28,583 nucleotides of DNA. It comes from a virus. The stretch's first letter is position 1; every line of letters starts with the position of its first letter. Of this stretch, positions 16,384 to 28,583 are shown piece after piece. The stretch lies in the IMG/VR virus record IMGVR_UViG_3300020171_000104, positions 1 to 28,583 of that record; one strand, written 5' to 3'. Both the position numbers and the translations under genes were made by a program. The notes below the pieces were generated by a model that was given only the letters and a program-made list of their open reading frames with translations, was not told where the DNA came from and did not search any database.

Positions 16384-17970
16384 ATGGCGTTTGACCGACC
16401 GGATTTGCAGACCCTGATTACCCGCACCACGGCGGACTTAAACTCCCGTTTCTCCGGGACCTATAACCGGATGCGGCGGATGGTGCTTGCGGTGATAGCG
16501 CGGGTGCTGGCCGGGCTGGCCCACGGGCTTTATGGGTTTTTGGCGTGGATCGCGGAGCAGATTTTTACGGACACGATGGATGACGCCCAGCTTCGACGGG
16601 ACGGGGCCATTTACGGGGTGCCCTACGACCTGGAATCCAAAGCATCCGGAACCCTGGAAGCCACGGGTACGGACGGCTCGGTGATTGAGGCGGACACCCT
16701 GTATCAGCGGGCGGATGGTGCGGAATTCATTGTGCTGGCCGAGGCGGAGATTGTGGGGGGGGTTGCGGATGTGAGTATTCAGGCCAGCAATTACGGGGTG
16801 GAAGCCAACACGGAATCGGGTGAAACCCTGACATTGGTATCTCCGGTTTCGGGCGTGAATCCCGAGGCCACGGTGGATGAAAACGGGATCACCGGGGGGC
16901 TGGATGCCATGAGCATGGCCACCTATAAACAGCGGGTCATCGACCGGAAACGGATCTATTTTACCGGGTCCAATGCCGCCATTTATAAAAAATGGGCGCT
17001 GGAGGTTTCGGGCGTGACAAGGGCCTGGGTGTATGAAAACACCCCGGTGGACGGGTCTGTGACCGTGCTGTTCGTGTGCGATGATGAGGCGGATATCATT
17101 CCGGATGCGGCCAAAATTGGGGATGTGAAAGATTACCTGGAGGAACATACGGACCCGGCCACGGGCATTATTGTGGGGCGGGGCGTGAATGTGACCCTGG
17201 TGGTGGACGGCCCGGTGGCCCAGGAAGTGGATTTTACGATTCTGCCCAGTCCCAACACGTCGGCGGTGCGGGCGGCTATTCTGGGCGAGCTTTCGGATAT
17301 GATCCGGAGGGATGCGGAACCGGGTGAGAATATTTTGATTTCCCATATCCGGGAAGCCATTTCCATTGCGGCCGGGGAAAATGATTATACGCTCACCTCG
17401 CCGATTGCGGACGAGACCGTGGGCGTAATGCTGGACAAATACCGGAGCCAGTTGAAACAACTGCTGCCGCCCGGCCTGGCCTTTCCACGCATGGCCGGAA
17501 CCAATTGGCACCGGGTGTTGGAAGGGATTGCGGCCGAAGCGGCCAGGGTTGAAGACCGGGCGCTGGATCTGCTGGCGGAGATGGACCCGAGCATGGCCAC
17601 GGAGCTGCTGGGCGAATGGGAAGCCGAGTGGGGTTTGCCCGATGCCTGTACCGGTGCGCTTTCGTCCCTGGGGGATCGCCGGGCCGCGCTGTTATCGAGA
17701 ATCCGTTTTGTGGGGGACCAGACGCCGGGATTTTTTGTGCGCCTGGCGGCTTCCATTGGATACACCGTCACGGTGGAAGAAAATGTGGATGGAAATCCCA
17801 AGGTGTGGCGGATTCGGGCTCCGGAAACCACGGTGCGGTGGTTTCGCGCTGGCCAAAGCCGGGCCGGGGACTCCATTCGAACCTGGGGAAATGACCTGCT
17901 GGAATGTGCCATTTTGCAAGTGGCCCCGGCTCACCTAACTGTTTTATTTGCCTATGGAGAGGAAAGCTGA
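16384..17970 (+). CDS. natural fusion of Mu gp47 (baseplate J) and gp48 (DUF2313/YmfQ) in one ORF
   Basis: 528 aa. Residues 1 to about 345 are the baseplate J protein: DRPDLQTLITRTTADLNSR, ARVLAGLAHGLYGFLAWIA, LRRDGAIYGVPY and TYKQRVIDRKRI. Residues about 349-528 are the separate gp48 family: DKYRSQLKQLLPPGLAFPR, MDPSMATELLGEWEAEWGLP and GDQTPGFFVRLAASIGY. Elsewhere these are two genes; here the J part lacks its usual last strand and runs straight into the start of gp48 at Met349 (ATG 17428), without stop or good ribosome site. Both are wedge and tail-fibre attachment parts of the baseplate. The stop overlaps the next ATG by 1 nt. Confidence 0.9.
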   Translation: MAFDRPDLQTLITRTTADLNSRFSGTYNRMRRMVLAVIARVLAGLAHGLYGFLAWIAEQIFTDTMDDAQLRRDGAIYGVPYDLESKASGTLEATGTDGSVIEADTLYQRADGAEFIVLAEAEIVGGVADVSIQASNYGVEANTESGETLTLVSPVSGVNPEATVDENGITGGLDAMSMATYKQRVIDRKRIYFTGSNAAIYKKWALEVSGVTRAWVYENTPVDGSVTVLFVCDDEADIIPDAAKIGDVKDYLEEHTDPATGIIVGRGVNVTLVVDGPVAQEVDFTILPSPNTSAVRAAILGELSDMIRRDAEPGENILISHIREAISIAAGENDYTLTSPIADETVGVMLDKYRSQLKQLLPPGLAFPRMAGTNWHRVLEGIAAEAARVEDRALDLLAEMDPSMATELLGEWEAEWGLPDACTGALSSLGDRRAALLSRIRFVGDQTPGFFVRLAASIGYTVTVEENVDGNPKVWRIRAPETTVRWFRAGQSRAGDSIRTWGNDLLECAILQVAPAHLTVLFAYGEES

Positions 17971-18497
17971 TGCATAAAATAGATTCGCCCAACGCCGACG
18001 CATCCAACGAATTCCGGGACGGAGACCCGATATTGGGGCAGGACGCCACGGAGGTTTGGAGCAAATTCTTAAACACCATTCAACGGGAGCTGGTGGCCAT
18101 TCCGGTGGCAGCCGGGATTGCCCTGGATGATGAAGACGACACCCAGGTGTTGCAGGGGATACTGGCCCTGGTTGCCGCCATGTTTGGCGGTGTGGCGGGC
18201 GCAAACGGATATTTAACCCTGCCGGGCGGGATTATTATTCAATGGGGGATAATTTCACCGGCCAGCCATATGATCTCCTATGATTTTGGGTGGGTCAATT
18301 ATCCGGTTCCCTTCCCCAATAACGCATTTTGTGTGATTCCAGCGCTGTTGACCTCGGAAACGGCAGCGCTGATGGATAATTTCATAGGGGTTCGGGGCGC
18401 ATCCTCGGCGGCCTTCCGGTTGCAAGCGGGCACGAATTTACAGGACACCTCAAGCACCAGGGTTTTTGGAGCATACTGGCTGGCCATCGGAAATTAA
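17970..18497 (+). CDS. short tail fibre protein with gp53-like C-terminal domain
   Basis: 175 aa from ATG 17970, which overlaps the gp47-48 stop (TGATG) and is preceded by GGAGAGGAAAG. Residues 1-75 (DSPNADASNEFRDGDPILG, ATEVWSKFLNTIQRELV) form a baseplate-binding N-terminus. Residues 80-175 are the compact fibre tip: GYLTLPGGIIIQWG, an internal beta region with PVPFPNNAFCVIPAL, and the closing YWLAIGN. That is the gp53-like C-terminal pattern of putative tail fibres. The long repetitive shaft normally between them is missing, so it is probably an adaptor or short tip fibre. The large protein that follows likely does the receptor work. Confidence 0.82.
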   Translation: MHKIDSPNADASNEFRDGDPILGQDATEVWSKFLNTIQRELVAIPVAAGIALDDEDDTQVLQGILALVAAMFGGVAGANGYLTLPGGIIIQWGIISPASHMISYDFGWVNYPVPFPNNAFCVIPALLTSETAALMDNFIGVRGASSAAFRLQAGTNLQDTSSTRVFGAYWLAIGN

Positions 18498-18506
18498 GGG
18501 GGTAAT

Positions 18507-20981
18507 ATGACAAAACAAATCCTTTATGAAATCTGCGAAGATCCGGCGGATGATGACCTGCTCACGGGTGTGGATGTCAGTGATCCAGTCATGGCTCCGG
18601 AAGGGAGCACAAAGAATTTTCGGATCGAAAGCTTGCGTGTTTCCGCAGCTACACAGTTAGCGCTGAATGTGAAGGCGGAAAAGGGGACACATTATCCTTA
18701 TGCGCTGAACATCCAGGATGTAGGCCAGGCGGATATTGACGGTTTGACCATCACCTTTGCCTCGGCTGGGCCGATGGGGGTGGTATTCGATTCTGCGACC
18801 TACACCTTAGAAAGTTTTACTCACACGTTTACTCAGGGCCAAAACTATTTTGTCTGGGTGAATCCGGACGGGACCATACTGTACGATGAGGCTGATGAAG
18901 GAAATTTTGATCGGTATGACCTCAAATGCCCATTATATAAAGTGTTAACCTGGCCTGTTGGCAGCGAAAACACAGGGATCTGGGCCGTATGGAAAATGGC
19001 AGATACCATACCCGTGAGAAACACTGTCTGGAAAGTGCCCGTCAACCTGGATTTGCTCCTGAATGATTATTGGGTTTTCCCACACAACAAAGAGTGGGGG
19101 GCACAAACCCTGGAGTATCGGGATTGCGTTCGGACATCGGCTCGTCGGTTATATTTATGTACGGTTCCGGGCACAATATCTATCACGGAACCCCTTGCGC
19201 CAGCTTTGGTTTGGGAACCCTATTCCTATGAAAACTGGGGAGACTTCCAAGCTACGGATGGGACGGCAATGCTTCGGTATATCGGGATGGATTTTTGCGA
19301 GGGGGCTTTTAGACAGGGATTAATAGCAGGTGTCCACAACGTTTTCGGGCTGGAAACTGCTGGATTCCTGGCCCGGTGCCCGAGAGAGATTTCCGACCCT
19401 CTGGCTCCGATGTTATATGCTTATCTAAAACAGGCGATCAACAGTGCAGTCACCGTTCGGTTTAATAATCATACCTATGAATACGGGATGCATGTGACCG
19501 GGGATTATAATTATGAAGGGTGGGTCTATCGCTGCATCGCACCCGGTGTTACAGACTCTTCCTGTCCTTTTTCAATAGACCCTGCCCCTACACCCGGAAC
19601 AACGACAGTTGAAGATGGTGGCGTGACATGGCTCTGTGTGGGAAGAACTTCTTACCATAACCCGGATGTCAACTGGACGATCATGGATCTTGATATCCTG
19701 GGGGTTTTGCTTACGAAACCGGATTCACATGACGCATCCATATGGGGGTTGATGTTCCTGGCAAACCAACTCCGCGAAGCTGGTAACTTGCCTGATGAAT
19801 TTTTCTATGGATACTCAAAGCACCGGGATTTATATAATAATCCAAAAACCTATTTCAGCACGTTCAATGACTTTATTTATTGTAATCTGACAACCCAATT
19901 TAATGGAAATTTATATTGGGGCTCCCAATTCGGATTGCAGCCGGATGGGTCAGGAGATCTTTATCCCTATTATTTGTTTATGGATATATGCTCTGGGTGG
20001 GGAGCACATGATCAGGCAATAAAAATTTATTCTGATCCGCGAGGGAATAAATCGGCAGCGGATATTGCTTATTACACCGCCTGGAGGGACGCTATTAAAG
20101 GCGGGATCGAGCGGTTTTGGGTGGAGGAAGCCGGGGCTTTTACTTGGGTTTTGGATGATACCGGGGCGCAGATGGAAACGTATTTTCCACCAGATCCCGA
20201 GGACAGCCCGCCAGCTTACCCTTGGGTTATGTCACAATTTACTCCCATGTCCTTTGGAGTCCCAATAGGATACCCAAAAATGCAGCGTGCCCACGCCTAC
20301 GCAGATAAAATATTCCCAAATTGGTGGAAAAGAAATCAGGAGGGTTCCCCCTTTTTAGCGCATTTTGGTGCTCTTGCAATGTGCATGGTAGATGGATCAA
20401 ACACTCTTCGGGATGAAATCATAGATCTGATAGAAAAAGACAGGATGGATGTATTTAGCCCAGATGATCCGACATCTTACGGATTGCAGAACATAAAGAT
20501 GCTTCACGGTTTGGCTATTTATCTCCTATTAAAGACTTCGCCAATTCTTAAACCGTTTAATGTAAACACATTTGATGGGACCGATGGCCATCAATCTGTG
20601 GATGTAAGTGTTGCGGTGTTTACCGGGGTTTGCTCATCCGGGGACGGGGCTGCTTATTATATGGTCCCAGTAAACCTGGATGAGTATTGCTTGGAGGACG
20701 TGTTCATGTCCTGTGCAGTGCCCGGAACCACTGGAGTAATGTCGTTGCAAATCAATCGGCGCAGACTCCCCGTGGGGGGATCTGCGGAGTTTGTTGATAT
20801 GCTTACAACATTATTCAGCGTGGACTCCGGAGAATATGATAGCAGGAACGCGGCTACCCGGGGCGTAATTAACCCGGATATTTCAGATGTCCGTGCCTAC
20901 GATTTGCTGCGTTTGGACATTGTCGATGTCCACACCACGCCAGCCCAGTGGCTGGTGGTTGGGCTGAGGTTCCGAAAATAA
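18507..20981 (+). CDS. large tail-associated receptor-binding/depolymerase-like protein of unknown family
   Basis: 824 aa, in the receptor-binding position of the operon. Residues 1-150 look like a beta-rich adaptor (FGQNYFVWVNPDGT-type segments). Residues about 245-320 and 384-680 are rich in paired helices with aromatic residues (DAMSI-type DASIWGLMFLANQLREAG, QNIKMLHGLAIYLLLKT), reminiscent of six-hairpin (alpha/alpha) toroid glycoside hydrolases or lyases. Residues about 321-380 look like an inserted beta module (GWVYRCIAPGVT, TTTVEDGGVTWLCVG) resembling carbohydrate-binding add-ons. Residues about 690-824 are a jelly-roll-like end (DMLTTLFSVDSGEYDSR, GLRFRK). The gene is visibly AT-richer than its neighbours, suggesting separate acquisition. 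Enzymatic function is inference; no family is recognised. Confidence 0.65.
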   Translation: MTKQILYEICEDPADDDLLTGVDVSDPVMAPEGSTKNFRIESLRVSAATQLALNVKAEKGTHYPYALNIQDVGQADIDGLTITFASAGPMGVVFDSATYTLESFTHTFTQGQNYFVWVNPDGTILYDEADEGNFDRYDLKCPLYKVLTWPVGSENTGIWAVWKMADTIPVRNTVWKVPVNLDLLLNDYWVFPHNKEWGAQTLEYRDCVRTSARRLYLCTVPGTISITEPLAPALVWEPYSYENWGDFQATDGTAMLRYIGMDFCEGAFRQGLIAGVHNVFGLETAGFLARCPREISDPLAPMLYAYLKQAINSAVTVRFNNHTYEYGMHVTGDYNYEGWVYRCIAPGVTDSSCPFSIDPAPTPGTTTVEDGGVTWLCVGRTSYHNPDVNWTIMDLDILGVLLTKPDSHDASIWGLMFLANQLREAGNLPDEFFYGYSKHRDLYNNPKTYFSTFNDFIYCNLTTQFNGNLYWGSQFGLQPDGSGDLYPYYLFMDICSGWGAHDQAIKIYSDPRGNKSAADIAYYTAWRDAIKGGIERFWVEEAGAFTWVLDDTGAQMETYFPPDPEDSPPAYPWVMSQFTPMSFGVPIGYPKMQRAHAYADKIFPNWWKRNQEGSPFLAHFGALAMCMVDGSNTLRDEIIDLIEKDRMDVFSPDDPTSYGLQNIKMLHGLAIYLLLKTSPILKPFNVNTFDGTDGHQSVDVSVAVFTGVCSSGDGAAYYMVPVNLDEYCLEDVFMSCAVPGTTGVMSLQINRRRLPVGGSAEFVDMLTTLFSVDSGEYDSRNAATRGVINPDISDVRAYDLLRLDIVDVHTTPAQWLVVGLRFRK

Positions 20982-21224: not shown

Positions 21225-21983
21225 ATGAACAGCCCTTTGGCGTACATCGGCGGCAAATCAAAATTGGCGAAAACCATTATTGAAATGATGCCGGGTCATC
21301 AACAGTATTGCGAAGTTTTTGCAGGAGCGGCCTGGGTATTTTTCAAAAAGGAACCGTCCAGGTTTGAGGTGATCAACGATCTTGACAGTGAGCTGGTCTC
21401 TTTTTACCGGGTGGTTCAAAATCACCTGGAGGAGTTTTTAAAGCAGTTTAAATGGCTGCTTTCATCCAGGGAAATCTTCGAGGATTGGAAACGCCAGCAG
21501 GAAGCAGGCGGATGGACGGACATTCAGCGGGCAGCCAAATACTACTATTTGCAAAGACTGTGTTTCGGCGGCCGGGTCCGGTCCAGAACCTTCGGCGCTG
21601 GCCCAATGCACAAGCCAAGAATAAACCTGCTAAGGCTTGAAGAGGAATTGTCTTCCGTTTATTTGCGCCTGGCCGGGGTTTCCATCGAGCACCTGAGCTG
21701 GGACCGGTTTATTGAGGTGTATGATAAGCCTGGTACCCTGTTTTATCTGGACCCGCCGTATTACAAGATGCCGTATTACAATCACAATCTCGGCATCAAT
21801 GATTACCGGAAAATGGCCAAAGCCCTCATCGCCATTAAGGGGCTTTTCATCCTGAGTCTCAATGACCATCCGGACATCCGGGAGGTGTTTAAGGACTATA
21901 AAATAAGGGGCGTACAGTTAAAATACACGGTTTCAAAGGAAGGTCAAAAGACCGCTAATGAGCTGCTGATCACCAATTATTAG
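21225..21983 (+). CDS. dam: D12-class DNA N6-adenine methyltransferase (Dam-like)
   Basis: 252 aa. It transfers a methyl group from S-adenosylmethionine to adenine in DNA. The AdoMet-binding start LAYIGGKSKLAKTIIE (residues 4-19), the segment VFAGAAWVFF, DLDSELVSFYR and the catalytic LDPPYY motif near residue 175 define the D12 class. Family members span about 250-290 aa, so it is full length. No restriction partner is nearby, so it is probably an orphan phage enzyme that masks phage DNA or affects timing of transposition; in Mu the unrelated Mom modification occupies the same right-end slot. GGAGG at about 21216-21220 supports the start. The target sequence cannot be read from the protein. 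Confidence 0.92.
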   Translation: MNSPLAYIGGKSKLAKTIIEMMPGHQQYCEVFAGAAWVFFKKEPSRFEVINDLDSELVSFYRVVQNHLEEFLKQFKWLLSSREIFEDWKRQQEAGGWTDIQRAAKYYYLQRLCFGGRVRSRTFGAGPMHKPRINLLRLEEELSSVYLRLAGVSIEHLSWDRFIEVYDKPGTLFYLDPPYYKMPYYNHNLGINDYRKMAKALIAIKGLFILSLNDHPDIREVFKDYKIRGVQLKYTVSKEGQKTANELLITNY

Positions 21984-22043: not shown

Positions 22044-22053
22044 ACGCCCAAAA

Positions 22054-22107
22054 GCAAATGGCTTGAGTTTTTCTCAAACCATTTGCAAAAAATCTCAAAC
22101 CATTTGC
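22054..22107. repeat. putative transposase-binding sites at the prophage right end
   Basis: CTCAAACCATTTGC occurs at 22073-22086 and 22094-22107, an exact repeat with a 21-nt period (two helical turns). An inverted copy with one mismatch, GCAAATGGCTTGAG, lies at 22054-22067. Mu-type right ends carry adjacent transposase-binding sites of about 22 bp just inside the terminus, and this array sits between the phage terminator and apparently host sequence. The terminal dinucleotide CA could be at 22118-22119 or 22124-22125. The left end is outside the window, so the pair cannot be compared. Confidence 0.6.
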
Positions 22108-22122
22108 GAAACTATACCAGAT

Positions 22123-22267
22123 ACAGATCCCGAGAATAGACCTGAACGGATAACCAAAACCCTTTTGATTTCAATTTTAAAACCCTTGGTTTCAATTTCA
22201 TAAACCTCCAACCCGAGCCTTACAAAAATTCCGGAGGCCCCCTCCCCTACTTGGGATTTTGATTGAT
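22123..22267 (+). repeat. 145-bp direct repeat, copy 1
   Basis: The sequence from CAGATCCCGAGAATAGACCT to GGATTTTGATTGAT recurs at 24000-24143 with roughly 85-88% identity by eye. Similarity begins within a few bases of the putative phage terminus, which suggests that the repeat is host DNA into or beside which the phage inserted. Confidence 0.85.
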
Positions 22268-26547: not shown

Positions 26548-26575
26548 AAATAAAAATATTTCGCGATTTTTATTT
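26548..26575. terminator. possible AT-rich stem-loop between convergent genes
   Basis: AAATAAAAA (26548-26556) and TTTTTATTT (26567-26575) form a 9-bp A/T-only stem with a 10-nt loop, exactly at the 3' end of the histidine kinase gene and after brnA. Its low stability makes terminator function uncertain. Confidence 0.35.
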
Positions 26576-28401
26576 CATGCAGCTTTTTTAGCATTTAATT
26601 CTGATTTCACCGAATTTCCCAGCTTCTCAAGTGTAAAAGGCTTTGCCAGGCATTTTCCGCAGCCAAGTTTTTGGACCTGTTTAACCCGGTCGGTTTCGGA
26701 ATATCCCGTGGCAATGATTGCCTTCTGGGATGGGTATAGTTTGACGATTTCTTTATAAGTATCCAGGCCATCCATTCCCGGATACATGATCATATCCAGA
26801 ACGATAAGATCCACCGGTGCTTTCCGGAGATATTGGATCGCCGCTTCGCCATTTGGAACGGCCGCTGCCGAATACCCCAGTGTTGTCAGCAATGCCACTG
26901 CCACCTCTCTTTGTTCTACCACATCATCGATTATGAGGATGGACTCTCCGTTTCCCTTGTAATTCTTCAGGGGTACTACGGTTTCCGCGTCATCCAAATC
27001 TTTATGGGTGGCTGGGAAATAGATCCTTATGGTGGTGCCTATCCCCTCCTTGCTTTTAATCTCAATATGACCTTCGTGGTCTTTGACCGCGCCCCAAACC
27101 ACTGTCATGCCCAAGCCTGTTCCGCTTTTTCCCATGACTTTCTTGCTGTAAAACGGCTCAAACACATTTTCAATTTCTTCCGGAGACATGCCCGAACCGG
27201 TATCGGTCACCTCTAACACAGAATACTCGCCCGGGGGGATTTCATCATTGTGTTGTACGATAGTCATGGTGATGACGCAGTTCCGTGTGGATATTGTGAG
27301 TTTTCCGCCACCGAAGATGGCTTCCGCGCCATTGGATACAAGATTCATTATGGCCTTGGCGATATGAATCGGAGACCCCTGGACATTCAATAGGGTTTTA
27401 TCTAAGTTAGTCTCCATTGCCACTTCCGGGTGATATGCCTTCAATTTCCCGAACTCCGGGCTATCCAGGTATTCGGAAACCAGAAGGTTAAGATTCGTTG
27501 TTTTTCTTGTGACGACCCCTCTTCGCACCAATGCGAGAAGGTCATTCACTATGGCTGCGGCCTTGAGCCCGGATTGCTTTATTTTTTCCAACGAATCCTG
27601 CAACGGACTGTCCGGGGGCAGTTTCATGCTTAACAGCTCCGGATAGCCGACCACTCCTGCCAAAACATTGTTAAGATCATGAGCAACCCCCCCGGCAACA
27701 TTGGCGACAACCTCCATTTTTAGGGCTTGCTGAAGCTTGGTCTGGAGTTCTATTGCTTCCCGGTTCAGTCTTTCTCTATCCTGAATTTCCTCTACCAGCT
27801 TTATATTTAGTTCCAGAAGTTCGCAATTTCTTTGGTCGAGCTTGTAAATCAGCTCATTTAACTTTTTATTCATGCTCCCCAGCCCGGTAACGATTAGGCC
27901 GGCAGAAAGAATTATGGTGATTGTCCCTGCTGCCCAAGCACTCAAAGAGTTCAGGTAAATGATCGGATCAAATTGCAAGGAAAGAATATTAAAATGGAAA
28001 GCCATTCCGATGAGGCAGAAGCAGATTGTGCTTATTGTGGCGGATACAACACCGCCCCGCATCCCGAACAGTATTGTGCAAATAACGCAACACACAATCA
28101 ATGCTGGAATACCGAAACCCGCGAGACCCATGGCGACCAGCCCAGAAACACCTTTGATAAACAAGATCCCGATAAGCATCCATGCCCGGATGAAAAACGA
28201 AAGATATCTTTCCAGGATTACCGTGGCCACAACAACTGTGTATAAGCCGATGTGGAGGGTCATGATATTCTGCCATCCCACGGTATAGGCCCTTGAAAGG
28301 GAAATGATAACGGCAAAAAATCCTACGAGGATTATGGCACGAAACACCCACTTCAGTTGTTGATCGTGTATCGCCTGAATCTCACCGGGTTTATTGTGCA
28401 T
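26575..28401 (-). CDS. membrane-bound hybrid histidine kinase with C-terminal receiver domain
   Basis: 608 aa from the ATG at 28401, chosen because GGAG lies 8 nt ahead on the minus strand; a longer start at 28530 lacks a site. Residues about 17-175 contain about six membrane helices and no sizeable periplasmic loop, so it probably senses something within the membrane. A coiled coil follows. The dimerisation domain has HDLNN with phospho-accepting His241. The ATPase has NLVSN (N353, N357), DTGSG (400-404) and GTGLG (428-432). The receiver (485-600) has Asp492/493, phospho-acceptor Asp536 and Lys587. No output domain is present, so the phosphate is probably passed to a separate partner, not visible here. 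Confidence 0.93.
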   Translation of the reverse strand: MHNKPGEIQAIHDQQLKWVFRAIILVGFFAVIISLSRAYTVGWQNIMTLHIGLYTVVVATVILERYLSFFIRAWMLIGILFIKGVSGLVAMGLAGFGIPALIVCCVICTILFGMRGGVVSATISTICFCLIGMAFHFNILSLQFDPIIYLNSLSAWAAGTITIILSAGLIVTGLGSMNKKLNELIYKLDQRNCELLELNIKLVEEIQDRERLNREAIELQTKLQQALKMEVVANVAGGVAHDLNNVLAGVVGYPELLSMKLPPDSPLQDSLEKIKQSGLKAAAIVNDLLALVRRGVVTRKTTNLNLLVSEYLDSPEFGKLKAYHPEVAMETNLDKTLLNVQGSPIHIAKAIMNLVSNGAEAIFGGGKLTISTRNCVITMTIVQHNDEIPPGEYSVLEVTDTGSGMSPEEIENVFEPFYSKKVMGKSGTGLGMTVVWGAVKDHEGHIEIKSKEGIGTTIRIYFPATHKDLDDAETVVPLKNYKGNGESILIIDDVVEQREVAVALLTTLGYSAAAVPNGEAAIQYLRKAPVDLIVLDMIMYPGMDGLDTYKEIVKLYPSQKAIIATGYSETDRVKQVQKLGCGKCLAKPFTLEKLGNSVKSELNAKKAA

Positions 28402-28583
28402 CAAAAAATCTCCGGGTTTTAAGGGAAGCAAGGAATGGTTTGGCTGGCGAGAAAAACTTTTTGCCAACAACAAGTGGGGGACCATGGGGACGCCCTTCGC
28501 ATTTCCATATTTAATACCTGAATCTTGCATGAAAAATGATCAAATCTCAGCAAAGCCTTATGAGAATCCTATTTACGGAAATT

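Follow-up and report, generated by a model that had tools for sequence, protein, structure and literature searches.

An orphan 824-residue protein in the tail-fiber slot of a Mu-like Desulfobacteraceae prophage and its candidate role in glycan recognition

Phage host range is decided by tail proteins that recognize and cut surface sugars; to our knowledge, almost nothing is known of sugar-cutting tail proteins in Desulfobacterota (sulfate-reducer-type) hosts. The window analyzed here, the whole 28,583-nucleotide stretch of the viral record IMGVR_UViG_3300020171_000104, encodes a large protein of no recognized family at the end of a tail operon, and the question it raises is whether this protein acts in the virion, what it might recognize, and whether it might cut what it recognizes.

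Setting of the gene in a Mu-like late operon

Over the stretches compared, the window was identical to part of contig VMSV01000013 from a Desulfobacteraceae MAG, and it carried Mu-like terminase, portal, head, neck, sheath, tube, tape-measure, hub, and baseplate genes. The source element is a Mu-like prophage of a Desulfobacteraceae (sulfate-reducer-type) bacterium. The gene for the 824-amino-acid (824-aa) orphan (P0001; 18507..20981, plus strand), supported by the open reading frame (ORF) call, a match in its own host genome, and one viral homolog, has a good ribosome-binding site ahead of it and starts 9 bases past the stop of a gene for a 175-aa short tail fiber (17970..18497, plus strand); its frame stays open only 3 codons upstream of the ATG. 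The initial annotation had placed the protein in the receptor-binding slot, and this placement held up: the gene follows, within the late operon, both the short fiber and a baseplate gene (16384..17970, plus strand) in which Baseplate_J and Mu Gp48 were recognized by Pfam/PHROGs-type domain matches. The protein thus occupies the tail-fiber slot expected of a phage tail receptor-binding protein, its homolog has a structural context as well, and we regard it as very probably a tail protein. One 528-aa ORF of the window (16384-17970) thus encodes Baseplate_J (Mu gp47) together with Mu gp48; in the related prophage L100, Baseplate_J is an ORF of its own.

The 175-aa neighbor had been cast as an adaptor for the larger protein. 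It is, rather, a complete short fiber with its own Gp53-like C-terminal domain (residues 84-175), separate and ordinary, and its N-terminal type is the same as that of the fibers in related cassettes. The 824-aa gene had also been described as AT-richer than all its neighbors. With a GC content of 0.481 (GC3, 0.49), it is so relative to all upstream structural genes measured (0.545 to 0.605); the description holds upstream only, since the downstream methyltransferase gene is its equal (0.480) and the host flank is less GC-rich than it (0.41 to 0.47).

Domain architecture and the single homolog

As first described, the protein is a real ORF product without a recognized family: it had no match in Pfam (E up to 10), PHROGs (E up to 1), or NCBIfam (E up to 5), and no credible match in the PDB, where matches at E about 0.2 to a beta-galactosidase (3cmg/5z1a) and at E 1.6 to RNase HII were put down to chance. 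A single homolog was found in a search that covered 2.9 million viral contigs, phage and plasmid records, and 84,980 species genomes, and in the last of these only the host contig of the window itself matched. When 389 and 291 genomes of the class and order were searched with profiles, no second core was found; the weak matches returned (E above 0.003) were fragments, and only one, to the beta module in genome G082, was informative. By tblastn, the phage and plasmid records held no homolog of the 824-aa protein or its core, and the relative, used as the query, drew only weak matches to its tail-fiber-like N terminus.

That relative (IMGVR_UViG_3300001605_000347; L001, 2523-4697) is a 725-aa protein, also uncharacterized, that is 46% identical across residues 45-685 of the 824-aa protein, a span that takes in the helical core and the two beta modules. 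Its N terminus differs, matching tail-fiber PHROGs, and it ends where the C-terminal domain of the 824-aa protein begins, so that the last 140 residues have no counterpart. The gene order of its contig is podovirus-type, with a P22-gp10-type head-closure gene (phrog_578) on one side of the homolog gene and a cupin-like short-tail-fiber gene, then DNA-ejection genes, on the other. Since the homolog lies in a podovirus-type context and has both termini swapped, the shared body reads as a cassette moving between virion types. From the comparison of these two sequences, the 824-aa protein appears to be a modular tail protein whose body is exchanged between phage types.

From the N terminus onward (all coordinates on the plus strand), residues 1-57 (18507..18677) carry the motif PxDDDLxxGVDVSDxxMxxxGSTKxFxLxxL, common to proteins in four other prophage tail cassettes, and residues 60-170 (18684..19016) form an N-terminal domain rich in beta structure that shares about 47% identity with the podovirus-type relative. 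The first copy of a CBM5/12-like phage beta module (residues 195-243; 19089..19235; best part 195-230, weak alone) and the second (residues 315-382; 19449..19652; found by profile and hhalign) enclose the top-conserved block, two predicted amphipathic helices with the signature YIGxDxxEGAFRQGxIAGVHNVFGL (residues 257-312; 19275..19442). Next comes a helix-rich core, a candidate (alpha/alpha) toroid (residues 383-684; 19653..20558), with the conserved motifs HNPDVNWTIMDxD, PDSHD, YPWVMxQ, and IFPxWWK, and then a C-terminal predicted beta domain (residues 685-824; 20559..20981). This last part had been called a jelly-roll-like end; it is indeed predicted to be beta-rich, but a search for homologs of residues 685-824 found none, and the domain is absent from the only relative. 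This 140-residue end is exchanged separately.

The inserted Trp/Cys beta module, first placed at about residues 321-380, proved real (about 315-382) but not unique to this protein. A weak profile match in another Desulfobacterota genome was the starting point that led to copies in viral contigs that share the consensus W.A.TA..LGD...PT..G..Y.CT.AGTTGATEPTWPT..G.TV.DGTVTWT. An HMM built from 45 phage copies, with 1000 shuffles as the control, scored 16.2 bits at residues 323-381 and 8.0 bits at residues 195-230 (9.6 bits for the first copy in the relative); the totals, 26.0 bits in the 824-aa protein and 25.4 in the relative, were above chance for both (best shuffle, 5.4). With hhalign, the module profile aligned to 314-381 (alignment columns) with an E of 2.2e-6, and the reversed control gave nothing. 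PHROG 20658 (“head decoration”) was matched by all 21 module copies tested and CBM5/12 by 4 of the 21 (best E, 0.0019), while the profile also matched residues 492-547 of a solved cyanophage tailspike receptor-binding chain, 7eea (E 0.0026); the module is therefore a real but common one. The earlier count of one insertion also had to be revised to two, the weaker copy at 195-230 having been missed, and the two flank the first predicted helical pair. Both modules (195-243 and 315-382) fit the same profile as the CBM5/12-like phage module (PHROG 20658; 7eea 492-547), but compared with other such modules, those of the 824-aa protein are two divergent copies set around the first helix pair of a larger core. 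When the 59-aa module was compared with the phage records by tblastn, nothing was returned; the module profile was likewise empty in four genomes, one of them the window's own host, where a match was expected, which marks that search as insensitive. In genome G082 (L103; G082:C5:50000-62000), a module-bearing 510-aa protein with a signal-like N terminus lies near a reverse-transcriptase-like ORF, and its end resembles the variable proteins of diversity-generating retroelements.

A candidate glycan-active core and its alternatives

A counterpart of residues 12-57 occurs in four prophage tail cassettes from genomes of the same bacterial class (two in G060 and one each in G155 and G330), each with a short fiber ahead of the motif protein and, where on the contig, baseplate genes before that. 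One of the motif proteins (L091) continues into a polysaccharide deacetylase domain, whose PF01522 score falls right on the gathering cutoff; in another cassette (L090), the motif protein is followed by a protein with DUF5060 (glycosidase-type) and Collagen_bind_2. The deacetylase fusion and the DUF5060 neighbor favor a glycan-directed cargo for the 824-aa protein, so the polysaccharide-directed role first proposed for it gains support by association, and we consider the protein probably glycan directed. The motif marks a cargo slot of Desulfobacterota prophages that gathers carbohydrate-active domains, and it could be used to seek more of them. The Aristophanes tailspike deacetylase (PMC8471582) and SGNH tail fibers (PMC13123978) are likewise tail-borne, carbohydrate-active, and found in the same tail slot; the likeness lies in the joining of such domains to the same N-terminal motif by related prophages, whereas the 824-aa protein has a different, unclassified core with a putative activity.

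The helical core had been likened to six-hairpin enzymes. AlphaFold2, run with the two-sequence alignment, gave pLDDT values of 32.5 for the full protein and 35.2 for the core, far below usable confidence; both low-confidence models place roughly 10-11 helices in the stretch from residue 258 to residue 677, with the beta module breaking the series. Foldseek of the core model against the PDB yielded only noise, the toroid-family HMMs in Pfam matched neither homolog up to an E of 10, and hhalign against heparinase II/III and Bac_rhamnosid6H (six-hairpin) sets was null, as was the toroid-to-toroid control, a comparison of low power. As for a beta-helix tailspike, no pectin-lyase-like match was found in Pfam or PHROGs, and the core is predicted to be helical in the low-confidence models. 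With somewhat less than even confidence, we take an (alpha/alpha) toroid as the likeliest fold of the core, in view of its predicted helix content and its conserved block.

A toroid by itself would not make the “new class” of degrading tail protein initially suggested, since the fold has already been reported in phage proteins, in 11 of 984 polysaccharide-degrading-fold hits of DepoScope (PMC11326577). There, a rare helical toroid is assigned to polysaccharide degradation; the 824-aa protein has no shown sequence relation to those proteins, and its toroid is only a candidate. A body that fits no family, found in phages that differ in tail type and probably docked via swappable ends, would make a candidate new enzyme family. 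In its fullest form, a proposal that we hold as a conjecture, the core (257-312 plus 383-684) might define a family of polysaccharide-degrading enzymes that is new, borne on the virion, and (alpha/alpha)-toroid in fold, with a duplicated CBM-like module around the first hairpin; phages of the myovirus type and the podovirus type that infect anaerobic bacteria would exchange it as a cassette.

Our best explanation, held with moderate confidence, is that the 824-aa protein is a virion-borne receptor-binding protein of the Mu-like prophage and is most likely glycan active. Residues 1-57 and then the beta domain (60-170) would attach it to the tail; the CBM5/12-like modules, whose presence at 195-243 and 315-382 is established, would hold surface polysaccharide; the helix-rich core (257-312 and 383-684), into which the second module is inserted, would cleave or modify that polysaccharide; and with the polysaccharide cut, the contractile tail could reach the envelope. 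Counting against this explanation is that no sequence match was found to any enzyme family, Pfam toroid families included.

The same lack of an enzyme-family match would suit a purely binding receptor protein, in which the CBM-like modules and the core recognize a surface glycan or protein without catalysis, as would the modules and the fiber context; among temperate Klebsiella phages, moreover, there are receptor-binding proteins that lack any known depolymerase fold (PMC13123978). We consider this the less likely alternative, and rather unlikely, given the distribution of conservation. Identity to the relative is uneven (69% in residues 257-320, 67% in 383-412, and 36 to 41% in the remaining core), and the best 30-residue window is 83% identical, a value equalled in 24 of 5000 permutations, so the conserved block is nonrandom. 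In both homologs, residues 257-312 give a clear amphipathic-helix signal, which is equivocal elsewhere in the core, and acids conserved between these two sequences only lie in YIGxDxxEG, NPDVNW, MDxD, and PDSHD. The strongest conservation is thus internal, in two segments of the core where acidic, His, and Asn residues abound, instead of at an exposed tip, a pattern that argues against binding alone, as do the carbohydrate-active domains in related cassettes. We lean slightly toward a catalytic protein.

A second alternative, which we judge improbable, is that the prophage encodes a lysogenic-conversion protein placed on or outside the host cell rather than in the virion. Consistent with it, the gene is AT-rich and at the late end, as are many accessory phage genes, and the motif proteins of G060, G155, and G330 have, by reading, lipobox-like (LTGC, LSGC, LLGC) or signal-peptide-like starts (L090, 2980-4293, minus strand; L091, 2545-4176; L100, 6226-8637; L101, 5322-6203); the motif may therefore not be a virion anchor in all cassettes. 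The 824-aa protein, by reading, lacks a signal peptide at its N terminus and has almost no open frame before its ATG from which one could come, its gene all but abuts the fiber gene, and its homolog sits among structural genes, all of which favor the virion-borne reading. Several neighbors of the motif proteins in L090, L091, L100, and L101 likewise start with lipobox- or signal-like sequences.

CBM5/12-like modules are found too in chitin and peptidoglycan enzymes, and a virion-associated peptidoglycan hydrolase, instead of a capsule or O-antigen enzyme, is nevertheless highly improbable, as lysozyme, amidase, transglycosylase, and peptidase families were all without a match and the gene is placed after the outer fiber gene, not in the hub or tape measure.

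The downstream end of the prophage

The late region ends with a D12-class adenine methyltransferase gene (21225..21983, plus strand), and prophage G155 (L100) likewise has a D12 methyltransferase downstream of its tail cassette; in the window, a Fic-domain gene of the host flank comes after it. Just past the methyltransferase and a terminator-like hairpin, at 22050-22130, are short repeats of CTCAAACCATTTGC, two in direct orientation and one partial and inverted; they may be the right end of the Mu-like prophage, where its transposase would bind. Farther into the host flank (26575-28530, minus strand) lies a hybrid histidine kinase with a MASE11 domain, whose coding stretch has a second copy, 74% identical, at another site of the host genome (G001:C269); some 70 bases at the right end of the window are repeated at several places in that genome.
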